A DNA stretch of 64,000 nt. Source: Streptomyces sp. NBC_00569 (lineage in GTDB: Bacteria; Actinomycetota; Actinomycetes; Streptomycetales; Streptomycetaceae). The notes beneath the pieces are model-generated. The model made no database searches. It was given only the letters and a program-made list of their open reading frames with translations, and was not told where the DNA came from. The stretch covers positions 4,947,501 through 5,011,500 of the forward strand of contig NZ_CP107783.1 in the NCBI RefSeq assembly GCF_036345255.1. The letters are read 5' to 3'. Position 1 is the stretch's first letter. Each line of letters begins with the position of its first letter. Positions 54,840 through 64,000 of this stretch are shown here, one piece after another. The position numbers and the translations under genes are program-made.

Positions 54840-54920
54840 GTGGAAGTGGCTCGACCGACTGCGGACATTCATCCGACGGGTGCCACCCGGTGGCTCGACC
54901 GCCGAGACGGCCATGCCTGA
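54840..54920 (+). CDS. Possible 26-codon leader ORF upstream of the VMAP gene
   Basis: A GTG preceded by AGGGGG (5-nt spacing) opens a frame reading VEVARPTADIHPTG and on to RRDGHA. It ends in a TGA that overlaps the ATG at 54913 by 8 bp. If translated it would couple to the next gene, which otherwise has a weak ribosome-binding site. There is no homology evidence. Confidence 0.35.
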   Translation: MEVARPTADIHPTGATRWLDRRDGHA

Positions 54921-56415
54921 GCGCCCGTCCCCGTACCCGGCCTTTCCCGCGAGCGAAGAGCAGCTCGTGGAAGCGCTGATGCGGGTGTCCGTCATGGAGG
55001 ACCGGCGCAGCCGCCGGATGTGCGTGGACCGGGCGCTGCACCATCTCGGACAGCGCCTGTCCGTGGCCGAGTTCGGCGAGAAGAAACCGCACATCGTCGA
55101 AATGGTGCGGGTGTTCGGCGCCGTGCCCCTGGGCTGGCTGCGGCTGGTGGAGGCCGTCCGCTATCTGGCGGACGACGATCTGGCCTCGCTCCAGGCGTCC
55201 GCCCTCGTGGAGTCGCCACTGCCGCCGGCCGGCGACCCGGCGCAGCGGGCCGCGCTCGACCCGCTCCTGAGCGGCCTGGACCGCGGCTCCGTGCCGGACC
55301 TCGCCGACCTGTTCCGCCATGTGGCCGGGGACAGCTTCGGGCCGCTGCCGAGGACGACCCGCACGGCACGCGAGGCGTACGAGCTCCTGGAGCAGTGCAA
55401 CGTTCCCTCGGACGGGATACCGAGGAGCGTGCGATTCCTGCACGAACTGGCCTATCTGGTCGGCCCGGAGCGGGGCGACCCGCTCCGGGTCTGGCTCAGC
55501 CGCCACGTCCGCTCCCTCGCCGCCGCGGGACCCGAGGGGCAGCGGATGCTCGACACCGTCCGTTCCTCCACCGGGAGCTGGCGACGAGCCCCCGGCCGTG
55601 ACGCCTTTCTGGTGATCCGGCTCCAGCCGTTGACCGAGTCACCCGACCGTGTCGCACTCACCTGCTGGACGAGTACCGGCAACGCGTGGGAGCCGCGCCA
55701 GCGGGACGACCGGGAACTGCGCCTGACGGAGGTGCCCGACTGGGTCGCCACCCTCGTCGACCGGGAGGAAGAGCGGCTGCGCAACCACCACGGCGGCATC
55801 GTCGTGGAGTTCATCCTCTCCCTGGCGATGGCGAACACACCGGTGGAGGACTGGACCCGGCCGACCCCCTTCGGGTCGCGGCAGCCCGGCCTCGGCACGT
55901 CGGCCCCGTACCGCCCTCCGCTGGGCATGGACTACAAGGTCGTCATACGCAGCCTGGAGCGGATGGAGGCACGCCAGGTCCACCGGGTGTGGAACGCGCG
56001 CTGGGAGGTGCTCAGGAACGGGGGCGCGGGGCGCGTGCACCGGTGCGAAATCGGCGCCGGGTCCCAACAGCAGGCTCTCTACGCCAAGTTGAAGCACAAT
56101 CAGGCCATTGTGTTGATGACTCTGGGCTCGTCGCCCGACTCGGAACACGGGCTCAGCGAGCTGACGCTCGGCCTCCAGGCGGGCCTGCCGGTGCTGCTCT
56201 GGGCTCACCAGGGACCCCTCGACGACACCGAGCACGCGGAACTCCACAGGCTCGCCGAAACGGGTGCCTGGGACGACTTGTTGGAGACGGTCACGCGCTT
56301 GCGCTTCTCTCCCGGAACACGCGACGATGGGCCGGAGGGTTCCATCGACTCTCGTATCGCTGTGCTGTGGGACGATCCGAGCCGCCTTCCCGAAGTACCG
56401 GAATCAGCGAGTTGA
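54913..56415 (+). CDS. EAD2 and VMAP-C domain protein (vWA-MoxR-associated)
   Basis: This 500-residue protein begins with an effector-associated-domain-2-like helical module (residues ~10-90, EEQLVEALMRVSVMEDRRSRRMCVDRAL). A middle helical region follows. The VMAP C-terminal domain is from about residue 210 to the end (AFLVIRLQPLTESPD, GIVVEFILSLAMANTPVEDW, GLPVLLWAHQGPLDDTEHAEL). VMAP proteins accompany MoxR ATPases and vWA proteins in predicted NTP-dependent conflict systems. The ATG at 54913 is favoured by overlap with the small leader ORF. An in-frame GTG at 54880 is the alternative. Confidence 0.78.
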   Translation: MPERPSPYPAFPASEEQLVEALMRVSVMEDRRSRRMCVDRALHHLGQRLSVAEFGEKKPHIVEMVRVFGAVPLGWLRLVEAVRYLADDDLASLQASALVESPLPPAGDPAQRAALDPLLSGLDRGSVPDLADLFRHVAGDSFGPLPRTTRTAREAYELLEQCNVPSDGIPRSVRFLHELAYLVGPERGDPLRVWLSRHVRSLAAAGPEGQRMLDTVRSSTGSWRRAPGRDAFLVIRLQPLTESPDRVALTCWTSTGNAWEPRQRDDRELRLTEVPDWVATLVDREEERLRNHHGGIVVEFILSLAMANTPVEDWTRPTPFGSRQPGLGTSAPYRPPLGMDYKVVIRSLERMEARQVHRVWNARWEVLRNGGAGRVHRCEIGAGSQQQALYAKLKHNQAIVLMTLGSSPDSEHGLSELTLGLQAGLPVLLWAHQGPLDDTEHAELHRLAETGAWDDLLETVTRLRFSPGTRDDGPEGSIDSRIAVLWDDPSRLPEVPESAS

Positions 56416-56509
56416 AGACTTCCAGCCCAACCAGGTGTTCGGGCTACGGCGGTTGGGGAGTACGGACGTGCACCGACCGGGCACGAACCAGGGTGAGGGG
56501 GAACGGTCG

Positions 56510-57625
56510 ATGGCCGACAGGGATCCGCACGTTCCGGCACAGACCGACGGCGCCGCGGCCGACCCCGGCGCATGGCGCATCTACCGAGGCACGGCGAGGC
56601 CCCGCGGCAAGGAGCCCCTGTCCCGCGAGTTACCCCCGCCCCCGCCCTGGCGCCGCTTCACCGGCGCACCCCTGGTCTCCGATCCGCCCCCGGACGACGA
56701 GGACGAGTTCACCCGCCGCCTCGGCCCGCCGGACGGCCCCGTCGTCCGCAAGGCGTCCGAGCAGGAACTCGATCTCGTCAATGCCGCGCTGTTCCTGCGC
56801 AGGCCGCTGATCGTCGCGGGCCCTCCCGGCATCGGGAAGTCGAGCCTCGCCCACTGCATCAGCCGTGAACTCTCCCTCGGCCGCGTCCTGCGCTGGTCGA
56901 TCACCAGCCGCAGCACCCTCAAAGAGGGCCTCTACGCCTACGACGCCATCGGCAGAGTGCAGGAAGCGGCCACCCGCGGCGCCCTGCGCGGCTCCGAGCC
57001 CGGCGCCGCCGGCGATCCGGCACCCGACCCGGACGGCCTGAACAACCTGGGCGACTACGTCCAACTGGGCCCGCTGGGCACGGCGTTGCTGCCCCGCAAG
57101 ACCCCGCGCGTCCTGCTCGTCGACGAGTTCGACAAGTCCGACACGGACCTCGCGGGCGACCTGCTGAGCGTCTTCGAGGAGGGCGAGTTCCGCATCCCGG
57201 AGCTGGCCCGTGTGCGCTCCAGGCTCCCCGACGCCGAGGTGCACACGGACGACCCGGACGGCACGGCGGTCATCCATCACGGGGCGGTGCGCTGCGCCGC
57301 GTTCCCCGTCGTCGTGATCACGAGCAACGGCGAGCGCACGCTGCCGCCCGCGCTGCTGCGGCGCTGCCTCTACCTCGATCTCCCCGCGCCCGACGCGGGC
57401 CAGCTCGCGGCCATGCTGGCGGCGCAGCTCTCGCAGGACGACGAGGGGCGCACCGCGATGATCCGCGACTTCCTCAGCCACGCGAGGACCGGCGGCTCGC
57501 TCGCCGCGGACCAGCTCCTCAACTCGGAGTTCCTGCGCACCACGCCCGCGGGCCCCGACGAGGGGTCCATGAGCACGCTGTTGCACGCGCTGTGGCGACG
57601 GCTCGACGAGGTCGGCACTGGATGA
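56510..57625 (+). CDS. MoxR-type AAA ATPase
   Basis: This 371-residue protein has a basic/Pro-rich N-terminus, a P-loop AGPPGIGKSSLAHC, Walker B VLLVDEFDKSD, sensor 1 in VVITSNGERTLPPALLRRC, and a short lid region. The helical insert before Walker B fits MoxR/RavA-like ATPases that remodel vWA partners. The ATG at 56510 follows GAGGGG by about 9 nt. It ends in an ATGA overlap with fxsT, so the ATPase and TPR protein are made together. Confidence 0.88.
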   Translation: MADRDPHVPAQTDGAAADPGAWRIYRGTARPRGKEPLSRELPPPPPWRRFTGAPLVSDPPPDDEDEFTRRLGPPDGPVVRKASEQELDLVNAALFLRRPLIVAGPPGIGKSSLAHCISRELSLGRVLRWSITSRSTLKEGLYAYDAIGRVQEAATRGALRGSEPGAAGDPAPDPDGLNNLGDYVQLGPLGTALLPRKTPRVLLVDEFDKSDTDLAGDLLSVFEEGEFRIPELARVRSRLPDAEVHTDDPDGTAVIHHGAVRCAAFPVVVITSNGERTLPPALLRRCLYLDLPAPDAGQLAAMLAAQLSQDDEGRTAMIRDFLSHARTGGSLAADQLLNSEFLRTTPAGPDEGSMSTLLHALWRRLDEVGTG

Positions 57626-60600
57626 ACCGGTCGCCCTCCCACGGCGGCGTGGCGGGTGACGGTATCGGGCCGGGTGCCGCATCGCTGGCCGAGGCGTCCC
57701 CTCAGCCGCACTGGTACGAGGCGGGCGAGGTCCTGTGGCTCGCCGCGCAGCGCTGGCTGCGGCTGAAGGACGCCCGGCGCGGCAGGCCACGGCCTGGCCC
57801 GTCGGCCGAGCTGCCCGAAGCACCCGAGGCGGAACGCCCGCGCCCGGAGGACCTGGACGCCCCCGTGCCGGAGCTCACGGAGGAACCCGTGGAGCAGCCC
57901 GCTCCCTTGACCGGGCCCTCGGCACAGGACCCGGATCCCGGCGGCCATGTGGACTCGCTCCTCATGAGCCTCGGGAACGGCTTCGCGCTCGACCGCTCGC
58001 GGGAGATCGAGAAGGCGCTGAACCCGCTGAAGCGACGCATCTCCTCCCGGAGCCAGGTCTTCCTCAACGAGGAGGCCACCGCCGAGCTGCACGCCGAGAC
58101 CGGCATGTGGCTGCCCCAGCTGGAGCCGGGCCAGGAGCGCTGGCTGACCGTGACGCTCCTGGTGGACTCCGGCGACTCGATGCGGCTGTGGTCGCACACC
58201 GCGCAGCGCCTCGCCGAGACCCTGCACTGCTCGGGCGCCTTCCGTGACGTACGGACCGTGCGCTGGCAGGAGGACGGCTCCGGCGGTGAGGGCGCCGCCG
58301 GCACCGACGGCCGGCATCTGGTCCTCGTCCTCACCGATCTGCACGCCGACCACTGGGGCGACGGCAGCGCCCGGCGCAGGCTCGCCCGGTGGGCCCGCAC
58401 GATGCCCGTCGCGATCGTCCATGTGCTGCCCGAGCACGTCTGGGCGAGGGCGGGCACGCGGACCAGCAGCCTCAAGCTGACCAGCCCGCGCCCCGCGTCC
58501 CCCAACAGCGCCTGGACCGCCGAGCCCGTGGGCCTGGTCATGCCCACCGCCGACCTCTCGGAGACCGACGCCTGCGACGGGGTCCGGCTGCCCGTGGTGA
58601 CGCTGACCCCCGAAGGGATCGGCGGCCTCGCCCGCTTCCTCGCGCACGACAGCAAGGGCGGCTACACCGTGCGCGTCCTGGACCGGACGCCCGGCGACGA
58701 GACCGCCGTCGCGCGCAGGCCCGCCGCCGCACTGCCCGCCGACGTCCAGGTCAAGACCGTGCGGGCCCAGCTCTCCCCCACCGCCTACCACCTGGCCCGC
58801 CTCTCCGCGGCCGTCCCGCTCAACCTCGACGTGCTGCGCCTGCTCCAGGAGGGGCTGATCCCCGGGGCGCGGAACTGGCACGTGGCGGAGCTGCTCCTGA
58901 GCGGGCTGCTGCGGCGCACGGAGGCCGAGCCGGGCGGGACCGCCGGGCCGGGCGTCGAGCTCGAGTTCGGCGACGGCGTGCGCCGGGAGCTGCTCTCGGA
59001 CGGGACGCGCGGCGAGACGGCGCGCGCGCTGATGCTCGCCCTGGACCATTTGGCGGTCGCCGCACCGGCGTACGGGGAAGGGGTCGCCCTTCTCCGCGAG
59101 CCGGATCGCGCGAGCAGTGTCTCCATGGAAGGCTTACGGCCGTGGATTTCGTCTATTTTGCCCGCTTTCGCGGCCATGGCAGGACCACACGCCACCGCCG
59201 CCAGGGAGCTTGAGGCACGCCTCGACGAACCTCCACCTCCGCTGGCCACAACCTCCGGAGAACCCAGCCAGTTAGGCGGTGGGGCCGAGCCCACCGCCCC
59301 GCCGGACACCGGCAACGAGGAAAGGGTCGAAGAAGTGAGCGGCTTGCAGTCCACCCAGGCCGGGGCAAGGGGTGACGCGCTGCAGAAGCCGCCCCCCGTC
59401 TGGGGCAACGTCCCTCCCCGAAACCGTGCCTTCACCGGCCGCGTCCAGCTCCTGGACGACCTGCACCGCAGGCTCCAGGAAGGAACCACGGCGGTGCTCC
59501 CCGAGGCGCTCCAGGGCATGGGCGGCGTCGGGAAGTCCCAGCTCGCGGTCGAGTACGTGTACCGGCATCTGAACGAGTACCAGATCGTGTGGTGGATCCC
59601 CGCCGAACAGCCGCAGCAGATCCGGCAGTTCCTCGTCCAGCTGGCCAACCGGCTCGGTCTGAACGTCGGCAGCGGCGAGGCGAACACAGCGGTGCCGGCC
59701 GTCATCGAGGCCCTGCGCGTAGGCGAACCGTTCAAGAACTGGCTCCTCATCTTCGACAACGCGGAAGACCCGGAATCCGTGCGGGAGTTCTTCCCGACCA
59801 ACGGCCCGGGCCGCATCCTCGTCACCTCACGGAACGCGCAGTGGGCCTCGTCGGCACGTCCCCTGGAGGTCGACGTGTTCACCCGCGAGGAAAGCCGTTC
59901 GCTGCTCCAGATGAGAGCACCGAACCTGGACAACGCGACCGCGGACCGGCTCGCCGAGACCTTGGGCGACCTGCCGCTCGGCATCGAGCAGGCCGCCGTG
60001 TGGCTGGCCGAGACGGGCATGCCCGCGGACGAGTACCTGCGCATGTTCGAGCAGCAGGCCAACGAGCTGATGGTCAGCGACCCGCCGGTGGACTATCCGC
60101 TGTCGGTCGCCGCCGCCTGGAACGTGTCCCTGGACCGGCTCCGCAAGAACCACCCGGCGGCTCTTCAACTCCTCCAGATGTGCGCCTTCTTCGCGCCCGA
60201 GCCGATCTCCCGGCGGCTGCTCACCGGCGTCCGCGACGCCCCCGTGCCCCCGGAGCTCAGCGCGGCACTCAGTGACCCGATCCGGCTCGGCCGCGCCATC
60301 CGCGAGATCAACCGCTACGCGCTGGCGCGCATCAACCACAACACCAACACCATCCAGCTGCACCGCCTGGTCCAGCGCGTCCTCATCAACCAGATGGCGG
60401 AGCCGCTGAAGTCGCAGATGCGCGCCGGCGCCCACCGGCTGCTCGCCAGGGACGACGCCGGTGAGCCCAACAAGTCCCACCGGTGGCAGCAGTACGGCGA
60501 CCTGCTGCCGCACGTCCTCAACAGCAGGGCCGTCGAGTCGACGGACCCGTGGGTGAGGCAACTCGTCCTGAACGAGATCCAGTACATGTACTACTGGGGC

Positions 60601-61872
60601 GACCACCAGGGCTCCTTGGACCTGGCCAAGGAGACGTACAACACCTGGCGCGAGGCCGACGGGGACACCGCCGAGCACGTACTCAACGCGGCCCGTATCT
60701 ACACGAACTCCCTGCGCATCCTGGGACGCTACTCGGAGGCGTACGAACTCGATCAGCGGACACTGGCAGGGATGACCGAGGTCCTCGGCCCCGAGCACGA
60801 GTCGACGATCGACATCACCAGCATGCTCGCCTGGGACCTGCGGCTGCGCGGCGACTTCCAGGCGGCGCTCGAACTCGACAAGCACGCCTTCGAGACCTGC
60901 GAGCGCCTCTTCGGGCCCAACGACCCGTCGACCCTCCTCAGCGCCCACCGGCACGCGCTGAACCTACGGTTCATCGGGCACTTCCGGGCTGCGCTCGCGC
61001 TCGACCGCATGACACACAGCCGCAAGGTCGCGGAGCTCGGCGAGAACGCGGTGTCGACGCTGTCGACCATGGCCTCGGTGACGTTCGACCTCCAGGAAGG
61101 CGGCGAGTACCTGGCTGCCCGCGACCAGGCGCGCGACGTCGAGGAGCGCTTCCGCAACACCGTCGGCGACACCCATCCGGACACGATCTCCGCAACCAGG
61201 ATCCTGTCGGTGGCCGAGCGGCGCGCCGGCCAGCACGCCCTTGCCCTGGAGCTGTCCGGCCGGTCTCTCGCCATGTTCCGCACCCGATACGGCGACCTGT
61301 ACCCGCAGACGGTGAACGCGCTGGCCTCACACGCCATCGACGTACGGCACAGCGGCGACCTCACCCGGGCACTCGAACTCGGGCAGGAGGGGTACGAGGG
61401 GTACGAGGCACTGCTCGGCCCGCAGCATCCGCACTCCGTCGCGGGACGCGTCAACCACGCGATCTGTCTGCGCCTGGCCGGGCGGACCGAGGAGGCCCGC
61501 GCGAGCAACGTGGACTCGCGGGAGAAGCTGATCGAGCTGATCGGCGTGGACCACCCCAACACACTCTCCTGCACCGCGAATCTCGCCGCCGATCTGTTCG
61601 AGCTCGGCGAGATGCAAGCGTCGGTGGAGCTCGCCACGGGTGCGCTCGACCTGTGCCGCACCAAGCTCGGCGTGGACCACCCCATCACCCTCGCCACAGC
61701 CCTCAACCTGTCGCTCGGGCTGCGGCAGCTGCGGCGTGACGACGAGGCGGACGAGCTGTACGCCGACACGGCCGAGCGCTACGGGCGCACCCTCGGCGAG
61801 GACCACCCGGCGACGACGGCGGCCGCGGACGGCAGGCCGGCGAACTGCGACATCGACCCGCTGCTGATGTGA
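57622..61872 (+). CDS. fxsT: FxSxx-COOH system TPR protein with vWA-like and NB-ARC domains
   Basis: This is a 1416-residue protein. Residues ~100-430 are a SAV_2336-type vWA-like domain (TVTLLVDSGDSMRLW, HLVLVLTDLHADHWG). The MIDAS is DSGDSM rather than DxSxS. Residues ~595-900 form an NB-ARC-type NTPase: P-loop GMGGVGKSQLAVEYVY at ~632, Walker B WLLIFDNAED, ILVTSRN, and LGDLPLGIEQAAVWL. From ~960 about ten TPRs follow (LGRYSEAYELDQRTLAGM, LGPEHESTIDITSMLAWDLRLRGDFQAALELDKHAFE). It resembles STAND proteins of defence. It completes the vWA-MoxR-VMAP set with the two upstream genes. Confidence 0.88.
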   Translation: MNRSPSHGGVAGDGIGPGAASLAEASPQPHWYEAGEVLWLAAQRWLRLKDARRGRPRPGPSAELPEAPEAERPRPEDLDAPVPELTEEPVEQPAPLTGPSAQDPDPGGHVDSLLMSLGNGFALDRSREIEKALNPLKRRISSRSQVFLNEEATAELHAETGMWLPQLEPGQERWLTVTLLVDSGDSMRLWSHTAQRLAETLHCSGAFRDVRTVRWQEDGSGGEGAAGTDGRHLVLVLTDLHADHWGDGSARRRLARWARTMPVAIVHVLPEHVWARAGTRTSSLKLTSPRPASPNSAWTAEPVGLVMPTADLSETDACDGVRLPVVTLTPEGIGGLARFLAHDSKGGYTVRVLDRTPGDETAVARRPAAALPADVQVKTVRAQLSPTAYHLARLSAAVPLNLDVLRLLQEGLIPGARNWHVAELLLSGLLRRTEAEPGGTAGPGVELEFGDGVRRELLSDGTRGETARALMLALDHLAVAAPAYGEGVALLREPDRASSVSMEGLRPWISSILPAFAAMAGPHATAARELEARLDEPPPPLATTSGEPSQLGGGAEPTAPPDTGNEERVEEVSGLQSTQAGARGDALQKPPPVWGNVPPRNRAFTGRVQLLDDLHRRLQEGTTAVLPEALQGMGGVGKSQLAVEYVYRHLNEYQIVWWIPAEQPQQIRQFLVQLANRLGLNVGSGEANTAVPAVIEALRVGEPFKNWLLIFDNAEDPESVREFFPTNGPGRILVTSRNAQWASSARPLEVDVFTREESRSLLQMRAPNLDNATADRLAETLGDLPLGIEQAAVWLAETGMPADEYLRMFEQQANELMVSDPPVDYPLSVAAAWNVSLDRLRKNHPAALQLLQMCAFFAPEPISRRLLTGVRDAPVPPELSAALSDPIRLGRAIREINRYALARINHNTNTIQLHRLVQRVLINQMAEPLKSQMRAGAHRLLARDDAGEPNKSHRWQQYGDLLPHVLNSRAVESTDPWVRQLVLNEIQYMYYWGDHQGSLDLAKETYNTWREADGDTAEHVLNAARIYTNSLRILGRYSEAYELDQRTLAGMTEVLGPEHESTIDITSMLAWDLRLRGDFQAALELDKHAFETCERLFGPNDPSTLLSAHRHALNLRFIGHFRAALALDRMTHSRKVAELGENAVSTLSTMASVTFDLQEGGEYLAARDQARDVEERFRNTVGDTHPDTISATRILSVAERRAGQHALALELSGRSLAMFRTRYGDLYPQTVNALASHAIDVRHSGDLTRALELGQEGYEGYEALLGPQHPHSVAGRVNHAICLRLAGRTEEARASNVDSREKLIELIGVDHPNTLSCTANLAADLFELGEMQASVELATGALDLCRTKLGVDHPITLATALNLSLGLRQLRRDDEADELYADTAERYGRTLGEDHPATTAAADGRPANCDIDPLLM

Positions 61873-61903
61873 CGCCGCCGAGGTGACGTCGGCAGTATCG
61901 ACA

Positions 61904-61936
61904 TGACCCCGCCCTGGACACATCCGGGCGAGGTCA
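61904..61936. terminator. Terminator between convergent fxsT and the HExxH gene
   Basis: TGACCCCGCCC/GGGCGAGGTCA forms an 11-bp stem with one mismatch and an 11-nt loop. It overlaps the stop codon of the minus-strand gene. Confidence 0.65.
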
Positions 61937-63832
61937 GAGCTGTGGCACGCCCGTCGCGGGCTGTGTGATGAGCCCGGGGATCCGCGCCGTCCAGCGGGCC
62001 AGTTCCAGCGGGTCGGGCGTCCGCGCGCCGCGGGCCCGCTCCTCCAGGGCGAGCGCCCGCACCAGCTCAGGGCGGTGCAGCAGGGACGTGGCGGTCTCGC
62101 CCTCGCCGGACGCCTCCAGGGCGAGACCGAGGCCGACCCACGCCGGGCGGGTGGCGGGGGCGCCGGTCAGGACGGCGCGGTAGCGGTCCACCGCGCGCGC
62201 CGCGTTCGCCGGCCCGCCGCGCAGGAGGCACATGTCCGCTTCGAGGAGGTCCGGGGACCGTTCCACGCCGGAGAGCCGCGCAAGGGTGTCCGGGGTGAAC
62301 GTTCCTGCATCAGCGATGTGCAGCCTCCGTAGTTCACAGCGGAGTTCGGGCTGACGCTGCGGCGGGTCCGCGCGCGGCCGGGACGGCGGCACGGTCACCT
62401 CTTCGCCCGGGCCGCCGCCGAGCCGGTGGTCGGCGAGCAGCCGGGTCGCGGCCGGGTCGGGCGCGAGGTTGTGGCTGCACCATGTGGACCGCAGATCGGC
62501 CAGTTCGGCCCGCGCCGGGGCGAATGCCTCGGCCGGTACGTCGTCGTCGGCCCACGGGACGGTCTGGCGCGCCATCTCCGTGACGAAGCTGCGGCCCCAC
62601 GGGGTGAGCCCGGGCTGGCCGGCCAGCGTGCGCAGGGCGATCGCCACCGCGTCGCGCCACACGGCGAACTCGAAGTGCGCGAGGACGGCACGGGGGCCGG
62701 CCAGGGCGTGCCGTTCGGTGCGCCAGAAGTCGGCGACGCCGGTGAACGCGTACGTGCCGTGGAGCAGGCCCCACGGCGGGCGCGGGTCGGTACGCCAGGG
62801 CGCGTAGAGCAGCGTGTCCTGGCGCGGCCCGCGCGCCGCCCTGTCGACGAGCTGGATCTGGTGGCTCAGACCGTTGAGCACGGAGTGCCGTGACTCGTGG
62901 ACGAGGGTGACCGCGAAGTCGACGGCGTCGCGCGGCAGGGAGACCAGTGCGCTGCCGAACGCCTCGGCGTACGAGGCGCTGGAGGTGCGGAAGCGGGGCA
63001 TGCCCGGCAGGGGCACGAGCGAGTTCAGGACGAGCGGCACCGTGCGGGCCGCGTCCGGGTGACGGGCCCCGAGCAGGCGCGCCGCGTCGTGCAGATGCCG
63101 CTGCCAGGTGTCCGACTCTCCGTCCGTGAGCGGGGCAGGGGGCGGCCAGGGGGACCGGAAGTCGCGGTAGGGGTCGGCATCGTCCAGCAGAACGGCGGGG
63201 CCCGGCTCGCGCGGGGTCCAGCTCAGCAGGCGTGCGGGGTGCCAGCCGGGGGCGCGCAGGTGCGGATCGGCGGGCAGTTCGAGGGTGTGCGGGCCGAGCG
63301 TGACGCGGGCGGGGCCGCGCCCGTCCGTCTCCAGCGTGGCGACGTCGTGGTCACCGGGGGCGTCGTCGAGTACGGCGTGCCCGACGGTCGGCAGGATCAC
63401 CTTGCCCGCCCACGCGGGTAAGCGGACGCGCGCGGGAAGTCCGGCCCGCAGCGCGGCCGCCGCGGCGAGCGCGTGCGCGTAGCCCGCCTCCCGCCACAAG
63501 GGGGGCTCGCCGGGCCGGGGACCGGCGACGCCGCCCTGCAGTCGCCCGAGTAGGCGGACCGCCCAGACGCCAACCGGCGGGTGCCGGAGCACGCTCGCCA
63601 CGGCATGCGGATCGAGGGCCTCCGCGCGGGCCAGCAGCTCGAAGGCGTGCGCCAGCGGGGGCAGCGGTCCTGCGCTTTCTTCCGTCTCGCGTTCCGCGGC
63701 GGCCAGGGCCCGCAGCATGAGCATGCGGCGGCTGCGCTCCGCCGCCGCGATACGGGTCCCGGTGGGTGCGGTGATGCGCCCGGTCGCGATGGCCTCAAGG
63801 TCGGCGACCGACACGTGGTGCCGCGTCAGCAC
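61934..63832 (-). CDS. HExxH-type peptide beta-hydroxylase-like protein (FxSxx system)
   Basis: This 632-residue protein starts with GTG and VLTRHHVSVADLEAIATGRITAP. The metal site HESRH is at residues 312-316 in VTLVHESRHSVLNG, with a further His at ~358 (LLHGTYAFTGVADFWR). The N-terminal half is helical and Ala-rich. The C-terminus is TPR-like. Proteins of this HExxH family act on ribosomal peptides as alpha-ketoglutarate-dependent hydroxylases, and they accompany FxsB radical SAM enzymes. The start overlaps the upstream gene by 7 bp. Catalysis on the FxsA peptide is inferred. Confidence 0.82.
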   Translation of the reverse strand: MLTRHHVSVADLEAIATGRITAPTGTRIAAAERSRRMLMLRALAAAERETEESAGPLPPLAHAFELLARAEALDPHAVASVLRHPPVGVWAVRLLGRLQGGVAGPRPGEPPLWREAGYAHALAAAAALRAGLPARVRLPAWAGKVILPTVGHAVLDDAPGDHDVATLETDGRGPARVTLGPHTLELPADPHLRAPGWHPARLLSWTPREPGPAVLLDDADPYRDFRSPWPPPAPLTDGESDTWQRHLHDAARLLGARHPDAARTVPLVLNSLVPLPGMPRFRTSSASYAEAFGSALVSLPRDAVDFAVTLVHESRHSVLNGLSHQIQLVDRAARGPRQDTLLYAPWRTDPRPPWGLLHGTYAFTGVADFWRTERHALAGPRAVLAHFEFAVWRDAVAIALRTLAGQPGLTPWGRSFVTEMARQTVPWADDDVPAEAFAPARAELADLRSTWCSHNLAPDPAATRLLADHRLGGGPGEEVTVPPSRPRADPPQRQPELRCELRRLHIADAGTFTPDTLARLSGVERSPDLLEADMCLLRGGPANAARAVDRYRAVLTGAPATRPAWVGLGLALEASGEGETATSLLHRPELVRALALEERARGARTPDPLELARWTARIPGLITQPATGVPQL

Positions 63833-64000
63833 GGCAGGACAGGCCGGTCGGGCTCGTCAGGCAGGTCGCACGGGGATACCGGTTCGGGCGGCCCGTGCTC
63901 GTGCCGGGGCTCCTGGGGAGCCGTGCCGCCGTGCTGTCGCGGGCTGAAGTACGGACTCCCGTCCCCGCTGCCCACGACCTGCCCGACGGCGTCCTCCGTC
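63826..64000 (-). CDS. 3' end of a further minus-strand gene (possible FxsB radical SAM protein)
   Basis: The visible 57 codons read in one open frame (GSPYFSPRQHGGTAPQE is the central part) down to RPVLPC and stop. The tail is Pro/Glu-rich and probably disordered. The frame is coupled to the HExxH gene by a 7-bp overlap. The identification as FxsB is made from the usual neighbour order, not from any radical SAM motif, because the catalytic part lies outside the window. Confidence 0.4.
   Translation of the reverse strand, partial: TEDAVGQVVGSGDGSPYFSPRQHGGTAPQEPRHEHGPPEPVSPCDLPDEPDRPVLPC

Follow-up and report, generated by a model that had tools for sequence, protein, structure and literature searches.

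The stretch of DNA analyzed here (the window, 64,000 nucleotides) comprises positions 4,947,501–5,011,500 of the 10.3 Mb single-contig genome of Streptomyces sp. NBC_00569, and toward its end it carries the genes of a predicted VMAP-type conflict system facing a putative two-gene peptide-modification module. Three genes in the order VMAP, MoxR and vWA lie on the plus strand between 54880 and 61872. The first (54880–56415, with an alternative start at ATG 54913) encodes a VMAP protein in which Pfam identifies EAD2 (56.7 bits), VMAP-M0 (60.4 bits) and VMAP-C (133 bits, cut-off 27). The second encodes a MoxR-type AAA ATPase (AAA_5, 32.4 bits, cut-off 22) in an open frame at 56264–57625, with a likely start at ATG 56510. 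The likely start of the third gene (57622–61872), ATG 57622, overlaps the MoxR stop as ATGA, and its large product combines a SAV_2336/vWA-like part with NB-ARC (29.7 bits, cut-off 23.5), DUF7779 (43.3 bits) and TPRs (TPR_12, 133.1 bits); the NCBIfam models SAV_2336_NTERM (310.8 bits, cut-off 200) and FxSxx_TPR (871 bits, cut-off 300) match it as well. A first-pass annotation of this DNA had described the three adjacent genes and the ATGA overlap, and both descriptions hold, with the qualification on the vWA part given below. The profile searches it had proposed for VMAP-C, EAD2, NB-ARC and SAV_2336 all gave matches.

The MoxR protein has the Walker A motif GPPGIGKS and the Walker B motif LLVDEF, as well as both N-terminal motifs of VMAP-type MoxR proteins, WRIYRG and PPWRRF, which were defined as WxhapG and PsWRxa (PMC7159879). 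Its PADLOC matches to IetA, mad8 and DolB are all weak, and the match to the NCBIfam model MadB is partial (55.8 bits) and far below the cut-off of 475. In the third protein we found DSGDS, which resembles a metal site, along with GMGGVGKS, WLLIFD and TSR; Walker motifs are present in both ATPases. No Pfam vWA model matched this protein at E ≤ 1e-3, and the published vWA-extension motif [D/E]xxx[D/E]xxxa is absent from its first 60 residues. We therefore use the weaker label "vWA-like" for this part, its support being the SAV_2336 domain and the DSGDS motif.

Convergent with the triad is a minus-strand gene (61934–63832) for an alpha-ketoglutarate (alpha-KG)-HExxH-type peptide hydroxylase-like protein with the motif HESRH; the gap 61872–61934 separates the 3' ends of the convergent genes. 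The protein scores 153.8 bits with TIGR04267 mod_HExxH (cut-off 40), which bears out the annotation's description of a HExxH peptide hydroxylase-type gene. Residues H312, E313, H316 and E388 are invariant in an alignment of the window's sequence with 31 others picked from 120 listed relatives (32 in all). Solved relatives are 22nu (254.5 bits) and ChlH, 8s5f (77.3 bits), and the C-terminal part resembles designed TPR proteins. In the sample of 295 genomes of the genus, a protein of at least 89% identity occurs in two (its own included) and one of 50–57% in four more, while some match at E ≤ 1e-40 is found in 73; among 72,556 plasmid records there are four distant matches, none covering 80% of the query.

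The other gene said to be coupled on this side is indeed present. It begins beyond the window, at GTG 64125 with AGGGGGA ahead of the start, and runs on the minus strand to the stop at 63826, so that only its 3' part (63826–64000) is within the window. Its 3' end overlaps the GTG start of the HExxH gene (63832) by 7 bases. The precursor-like product of 99 residues consists of an FxsA-like leader and a tail, PRHEHGPP...LPC, with the C-terminus DEPDRPVLPC. It was found in 6 of 392 searched (its own included), and no NCBIfam family matched it, even at E 10. Residues P73–P80 (PRHEHGPP) and C99 of the tail are conserved in 90% or more of 19 sequences; P0016 is without the tail and a few other sequences deviate at single positions. 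A rough estimate of omega, from about 18 substitutions in one pair (the window and its near twin, locus L014), is 0.13 for the leader and 0.46 for the tail. The residues after the leader number 52 in the window protein and 55 in L014, compared with 4–31 in the other 76 loci, and the stop/start overlap with the HExxH gene is seen in the window and L014. The lengthened precursor tail is one of the new points made here.

The first-pass annotation had assigned this locus to the FxSxx-COOH system, an assignment that we reject: neither FxsA nor FxsB is above cut-off in the genome, no FxsB-like gene was seen in the flanks (up to 10 kb) of related loci, and the peptide ends in LPC. For FxsA no match in the genome was above cut-off (best E 0.116), nor was any for FxsB (best 30.2 bits vs 370). 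These absences are informative because the FxsA model is above cut-off in 115 and the FxsB model in 179 of the 295 genus genomes; G161, the closest relative in that sample, carries both on a contig other than that of this locus. Past 64000, where an FxSxx peptide gene and a radical SAM/SPASM gene had been expected, a small gene (99 codons, FxsA-like leader) does lie, without an FxSxx end and without an FxsB-type radical SAM/SPASM gene. Of the two outcomes that were to count against the proposal, the absence of FxsA and FxsB was observed, and the absence of VMAP-C and NB-ARC matches was not, both being present. It is the NCBI model matching the NB-ARC/TPR protein that brings the FxSxx name to this locus, which suggests that naming this family after FxSxx misleads for loci like that of the window. 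The genome has one above-cut-off match each to VMAP-C, mod_HExxH and FxSxx_TPR, and all three are found here; a further 21 matches to FxSxx_TPR are partial and below cut-off.

For comparison, 79 related loci were used, the best 79 of at least 567 confirmed matches and hence nearer relatives, with flanks of up to 10 kb per side (shorter in 10 of the 79). NB-ARC plus TPR was found in 73 of them, VMAP in 63, the vWA part in 63 and MoxR in 50; all five occur in 48 loci and none in 4. These layout counts are of flank matches only, so that short contigs and divergent parts may escape them. In 63 of the 79 loci, spread over many genera, the NB-ARC-TPR and HExxH genes are convergent. The convergent ends are at most 300 bp apart or overlap in 60 of the 63, and at most 60 bp apart in 43 of the 63; two convergent overlaps of more than 1 kb are probable frame artefacts. 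The NB-ARC-TPR gene is on the HExxH strand in 10 of the 79 loci. Where both the vWA part and NB-ARC-TPR were found (63 loci), they share one open frame in 61. No FxsB-like gene was seen in these flanks of the 79 loci, as searched with seven queries for which the queries' own loci were the sole positive control. The close convergent 3' ends across genera could couple both sides by convergent transcription.

Counting the window, 78 of 80 loci have a match to a leader profile built from small open reading frames (ORFs) 5' of HExxH genes; within 1.5 kb of the HExxH gene, L028 and L092 have none. As the profile was trained on its own matches, ORFs elsewhere in the same 79 loci served as control: at E < 0.01, the vicinity of the HExxH start yielded 77 of its 1,024 ORFs, versus 16 of 23,048 elsewhere. 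The 16 distant matches are in 16 loci, 14 of which have a second HExxH place, the others being L028 and L092; the leader gene of these two is thus placed elsewhere in the locus, since a distant match is present there. At the same threshold the profile, run on 1,119 ORFs, recovers FxsA-type ORFs in 28 of 30 FxsA loci; 26 of these coincide in position with the FxsA match, and the scores, 12 to 35 bits, include some weak ones. From these recoveries the small protein of the window is, by sequence, an FxsA relative through its leader. The claim that the triad is joined to a peptide-modification module is supported by the convergent layout (63 of 79) and the leader gene (78 of 80); the FxSxx type given to that module is not supported.

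A second HExxH place occurs in 15 of the 79 loci, and in 14 of these 15 (L031, L033, L047, L049, L061, L066, L073, L076, L077, L078, L079, L082, L084 and L090) a second leader-bearing small ORF is beside the second HExxH gene, giving paired peptide modules. Within 5 kb of the HExxH gene, the ORF cluster shared by the largest number of loci (11) is this second HExxH gene. The clustering covered 77 loci (L019 and L072 excluded; some contigs are shorter), and no recurrent 5' cluster among them was recognized as a transporter, most clusters having no identification. In L040, L043, L044, L048, L069, L071, L081 and L085 the small gene is preceded on its own strand by what, by eye, resembles a gene for a CRP-like regulator; a link of the peptide module to a CRP-like regulator was mentioned in PMC7159879. 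Beyond the window end, about 2.4 kb from the locus, lies clpB, with dnaK, grpE, dnaJ and a MerR-type regulator gene farther away, all on the minus strand by Pfam (L003:2588–14480, window coordinates 66487–78379).

The C-termini of the small proteins differ among the loci. An R-x-D end is present in 33 of 78 small proteins, an FxSxx end in none of the 78, and four contiguous acidic residues in none of the last 20 residues of the 41 proteins tested. Shuffled post-leader parts gave a mean of 0.8 R-x-D ends and a maximum of 6 in 1,000 rounds (uncorrected for relatedness). In the 45 proteins without an R-x-D end, R-x-D elsewhere is not enriched (4, shuffle mean 3.2) and R-x-[D/E] is mildly so (12 vs a mean of 6.0), because of which the internal P-R-H-E of the window's peptide is only suggestive. 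The sister loci L015–L020 have short ends, with CD near the end in 5 of 6 and 37–46 bp left before the start of the HExxH match. A stretch GY[NS]GSF followed by a tail of 12–16 residues, which is not of RxD, FxSxx or acidic type, was seen in L034, L042, L054 and L064. Ends of the type GY[NQ]PQR[DE] were seen in the Streptomyces loci L061, L066, L073, L076, L077, L079, L084 and L090, all eight of which have a second HExxH gene upstream in opposite orientation; the NB-ARC/TPR gene is upstream on the same strand in seven of the eight, and no triad part was found in L066.

The resemblance of the R-x-D ends to characterized alpha-KG-HExxH pathways, as judged from sequence, is a new point here; in the literature searched, mostly without subscription papers and in part as excerpts, no link was drawn between the R-x-D ends of these pathways and VMAP-linked peptides. 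Characterized alpha-KG-HExxH enzymes oxidize leader-bearing precursors, hydroxylating His, Asp, Gln or Pro, and oxidative cutting is possible (PMC12636437, PMC13060819). Enzymes of this class hydroxylate Gln and cut at ARMD, and a family member earlier described as a "metallopeptidase" is an oxygenase (PMC12636437); in another case the hydroxylated Pro precedes a conserved R(V/T)DN (PMC13060819). This suggests that the published label "metallopeptidase" for the HExxH gene of VMAP loci may need changing to oxygenase. One could imagine that alpha-KG-HExxH enzymes share an ancient reading of a handle, acting just before R-x-D, with the R-x-D at or near the C-terminus being the ARMD of Pseudomonas Pfl/Pos, the R(V/T)DN of Peribacillus Pes and the very end of the VMAP-linked precursors in 33 of 78 cases. 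This handle would have been dropped in the window's clade, which kept an internal P-R-H-E, in a series leading from a free precursor by way of the stop/start overlap to a precursor in cis with the enzyme. We regard this joint proposal as doubtful. A strict R-x-D handle is weakened by the report that Ala is the most important residue of ARMD, with R, M or D dispensable one at a time (PMC12636437). Were the joint proposal true, what controls a bacterial STAND complex would be an internally oxidized peptide segment and not a released peptide. The cis arrangement is seen in L095 (P0029), probably a precursor-enzyme fusion: leader and HExxH enzyme share a single open frame, and no good start codon separates them. 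In the T-3 record P0028 the frame is alike, but an internal Met could be the true start. Such fusion appears rare because a search with the P0029 leader returned only P0029 at E ≤ 0.01.

We propose, tentatively, that the locus joins a VMAP-type MoxR/vWA ternary conflict system to a two-gene, non-FxSxx peptide-oxidation module whose oxidized intracellular peptide regulates the STAND/MoxR complex, a reading that could well be right. What can be read directly in the DNA is the set of parts, the conserved convergent layout and the shared leader; the regulatory step from the peptide to the STAND/MoxR complex is one that we infer. The small protein is in our opinion very probably the substrate of the HExxH enzyme, and the chemistry on it is likely to be oxidation rather than plain hydrolysis. 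The leader would dock the precursor on the HExxH enzyme, and this alpha-KG/Fe oxygenase would beta-hydroxylate a core His, Asp or Pro of the PRHEHGPP...LPC tail and may also cut the chain. The oxidized peptide would remain in the cell and, as ligand or safety catch, bind to the TPR/NB-ARC part; an intracellular action of the product on the NB-ARC/TPR protein is possible, and we suggest it with some reserve. STAND proteins assemble upon ligand binding. When an invader disturbs the peptide, the NB-ARC protein would assemble, MoxR would remodel the complex, and the EAD2 of the VMAP protein would recruit an effector. With an enzyme of a characterized class beside the triad, both oxidation of the small protein and STAND/MoxR switching are open to direct assay, and the function of the widespread VMAP systems is still a predicted one in the passages available (PMC7159879).

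Several observations weigh against this proposal. The distances of the peptide C-terminus track all six proteins about equally well (r 0.70–0.77 over the 48 of the 79 loci in which every part is present). With NB-ARC and MoxR fixed, the partial r of the leader is 0.436 with VMAP, 0.384 with vWA, 0.368 with TPR and 0.232 with HExxH; since HExxH is the lowest, docking of the leader on the enzyme is not favored in particular. The leader in frame with the enzyme in one relative fits a released peptide poorly, and no experiment on a VMAP-linked peptide was found in the literature searched, part of it available as excerpts. The corresponding partial r of the C-terminus is 0.244 with the leader, 0.221 with HExxH, 0.182 with vWA, 0.145 with TPR and 0.12 with VMAP (permutation p 0.001–0.018, relatedness uncorrected). 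NB-ARC is the best conserved of the proteins in these 48 loci, with a mean distance of 0.359 vs 0.42–0.66 for the other five. Co-evolution of sensor and peptide was dropped as a discriminator: r is about equal throughout and the TPRs are not singled out as the partner of the peptide.

Other explanations of the locus relate mainly to what the HExxH protein does. It was predicted in print to be a zincin-type peptidase (PMC7159879), which would cut the precursor, and HExxH with an invariant downstream Glu (E388) would suit a metallopeptidase too; PflC, moreover, hydrolyses truncated leaderless substrates (PMC12636437). However, the best curated model is that of the aKG-HExxH hydroxylases, ChlH is a solved relative, and the members of the family characterized in print are oxygenases (PMC12636437, PMC13060819), so we consider a peptidase somewhat unlikely. 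If the protein is an oxygenase, its target may still be another one, for example a triad protein, with the small protein serving in this Streptomyces clade as a leader-derived partner or activator subunit. Such a role would suit the stop/start overlap in the window and L014, the leader in the enzyme frame in L095 (and in P0028, where the internal Met means that the gene model may be wrong) and a post-leader part of 52–55 residues here against 4–31 in the other 76 loci. We think it unlikely, as the tail is conserved (P73–P80, C99) in the way that a substrate core would be and the fusion is rare, P0029 being the only record that its leader retrieves.

The peptide module and the triad could also be independent neighbors, as 4 of the 79 loci are without any triad part, 6 are without the NB-ARC and TPR match pair, and 10 have NB-ARC/TPR on the HExxH strand (with short flanks in 10 of the 79). 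The convergent arrangement, present in 63 of the 79 loci and in many genera, and the occurrence of the only above-cut-off matches to VMAP-C, HExxH and FxSxx_TPR at this one locus make mere neighborhood very improbable.

In comparison with known systems, the locus is a real and conserved one of a kind already described (PMC7159879). The pairing of triad and peptide module is not new: it was published in 2020, when a joint VMAP-peptide system of this kind was predicted and about 20% of actinobacterial VMAP systems were reported to carry a peptide module made up of a zincin-like gene and one for a small, variable protein (PMC7159879). That paper lists VMAP systems in 716 organisms, 694 of them multicellular (its Table 1), states that STAND proteins assemble upon ligand binding, and distinguishes FxSxx, RxD, acidic and FtsH-associated peptide types. 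FxSxx is there linked with a radical SAM gene; for RxD and acidic peptides, AP-ATPase and vWA protein are described as fused. The vWA proteins of VMAP systems were proposed as sensors, which was said still to need testing (PMC10907252).

The window resembles the RxD/acidic type (PMC7159879) in the order VMAP-MoxR-vWA, in the fusion of AP-ATPase and TPRs with the vWA protein, in the HExxH gene and small fast-changing protein, and in having no FxsB-type radical SAM gene; it differs in a precursor that ends in LPC after the long PRHEHGPP tail, with neither RxD nor a run of four acidic residues. With the FxSxx-COOH system (FxsA/FxsB; TIGR04268/TIGR04269) it shares a homologous leader and an NB-ARC/TPR protein within the FxSxx_TPR model. 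The genome, however, has no FxsA or FxsB above cut-off and the peptide no FxSxx end, and the AP-ATPase is fused to the vWA protein here, whereas there a separate TIR-AP-ATPase gene is the rule (PMC7159879). ChlH (8s5f), PflC/PosC and PesO have the same HExxH domain family and an adjacent precursor gene, and Pfl/Pos (ARMD) and Pes (R(V/T)DN) resemble the 33 of 78 related loci with R-x-D ends, though not the window's peptide. Unlike ChlH, PflC/PosC and PesO, the window's enzyme carries no fused radical SAM domain, has a TPR-like C-terminal part and stands beside a conflict system. From its sequence, then, the window fits the fused VMAP type except for the peptide end and the weak vWA label.

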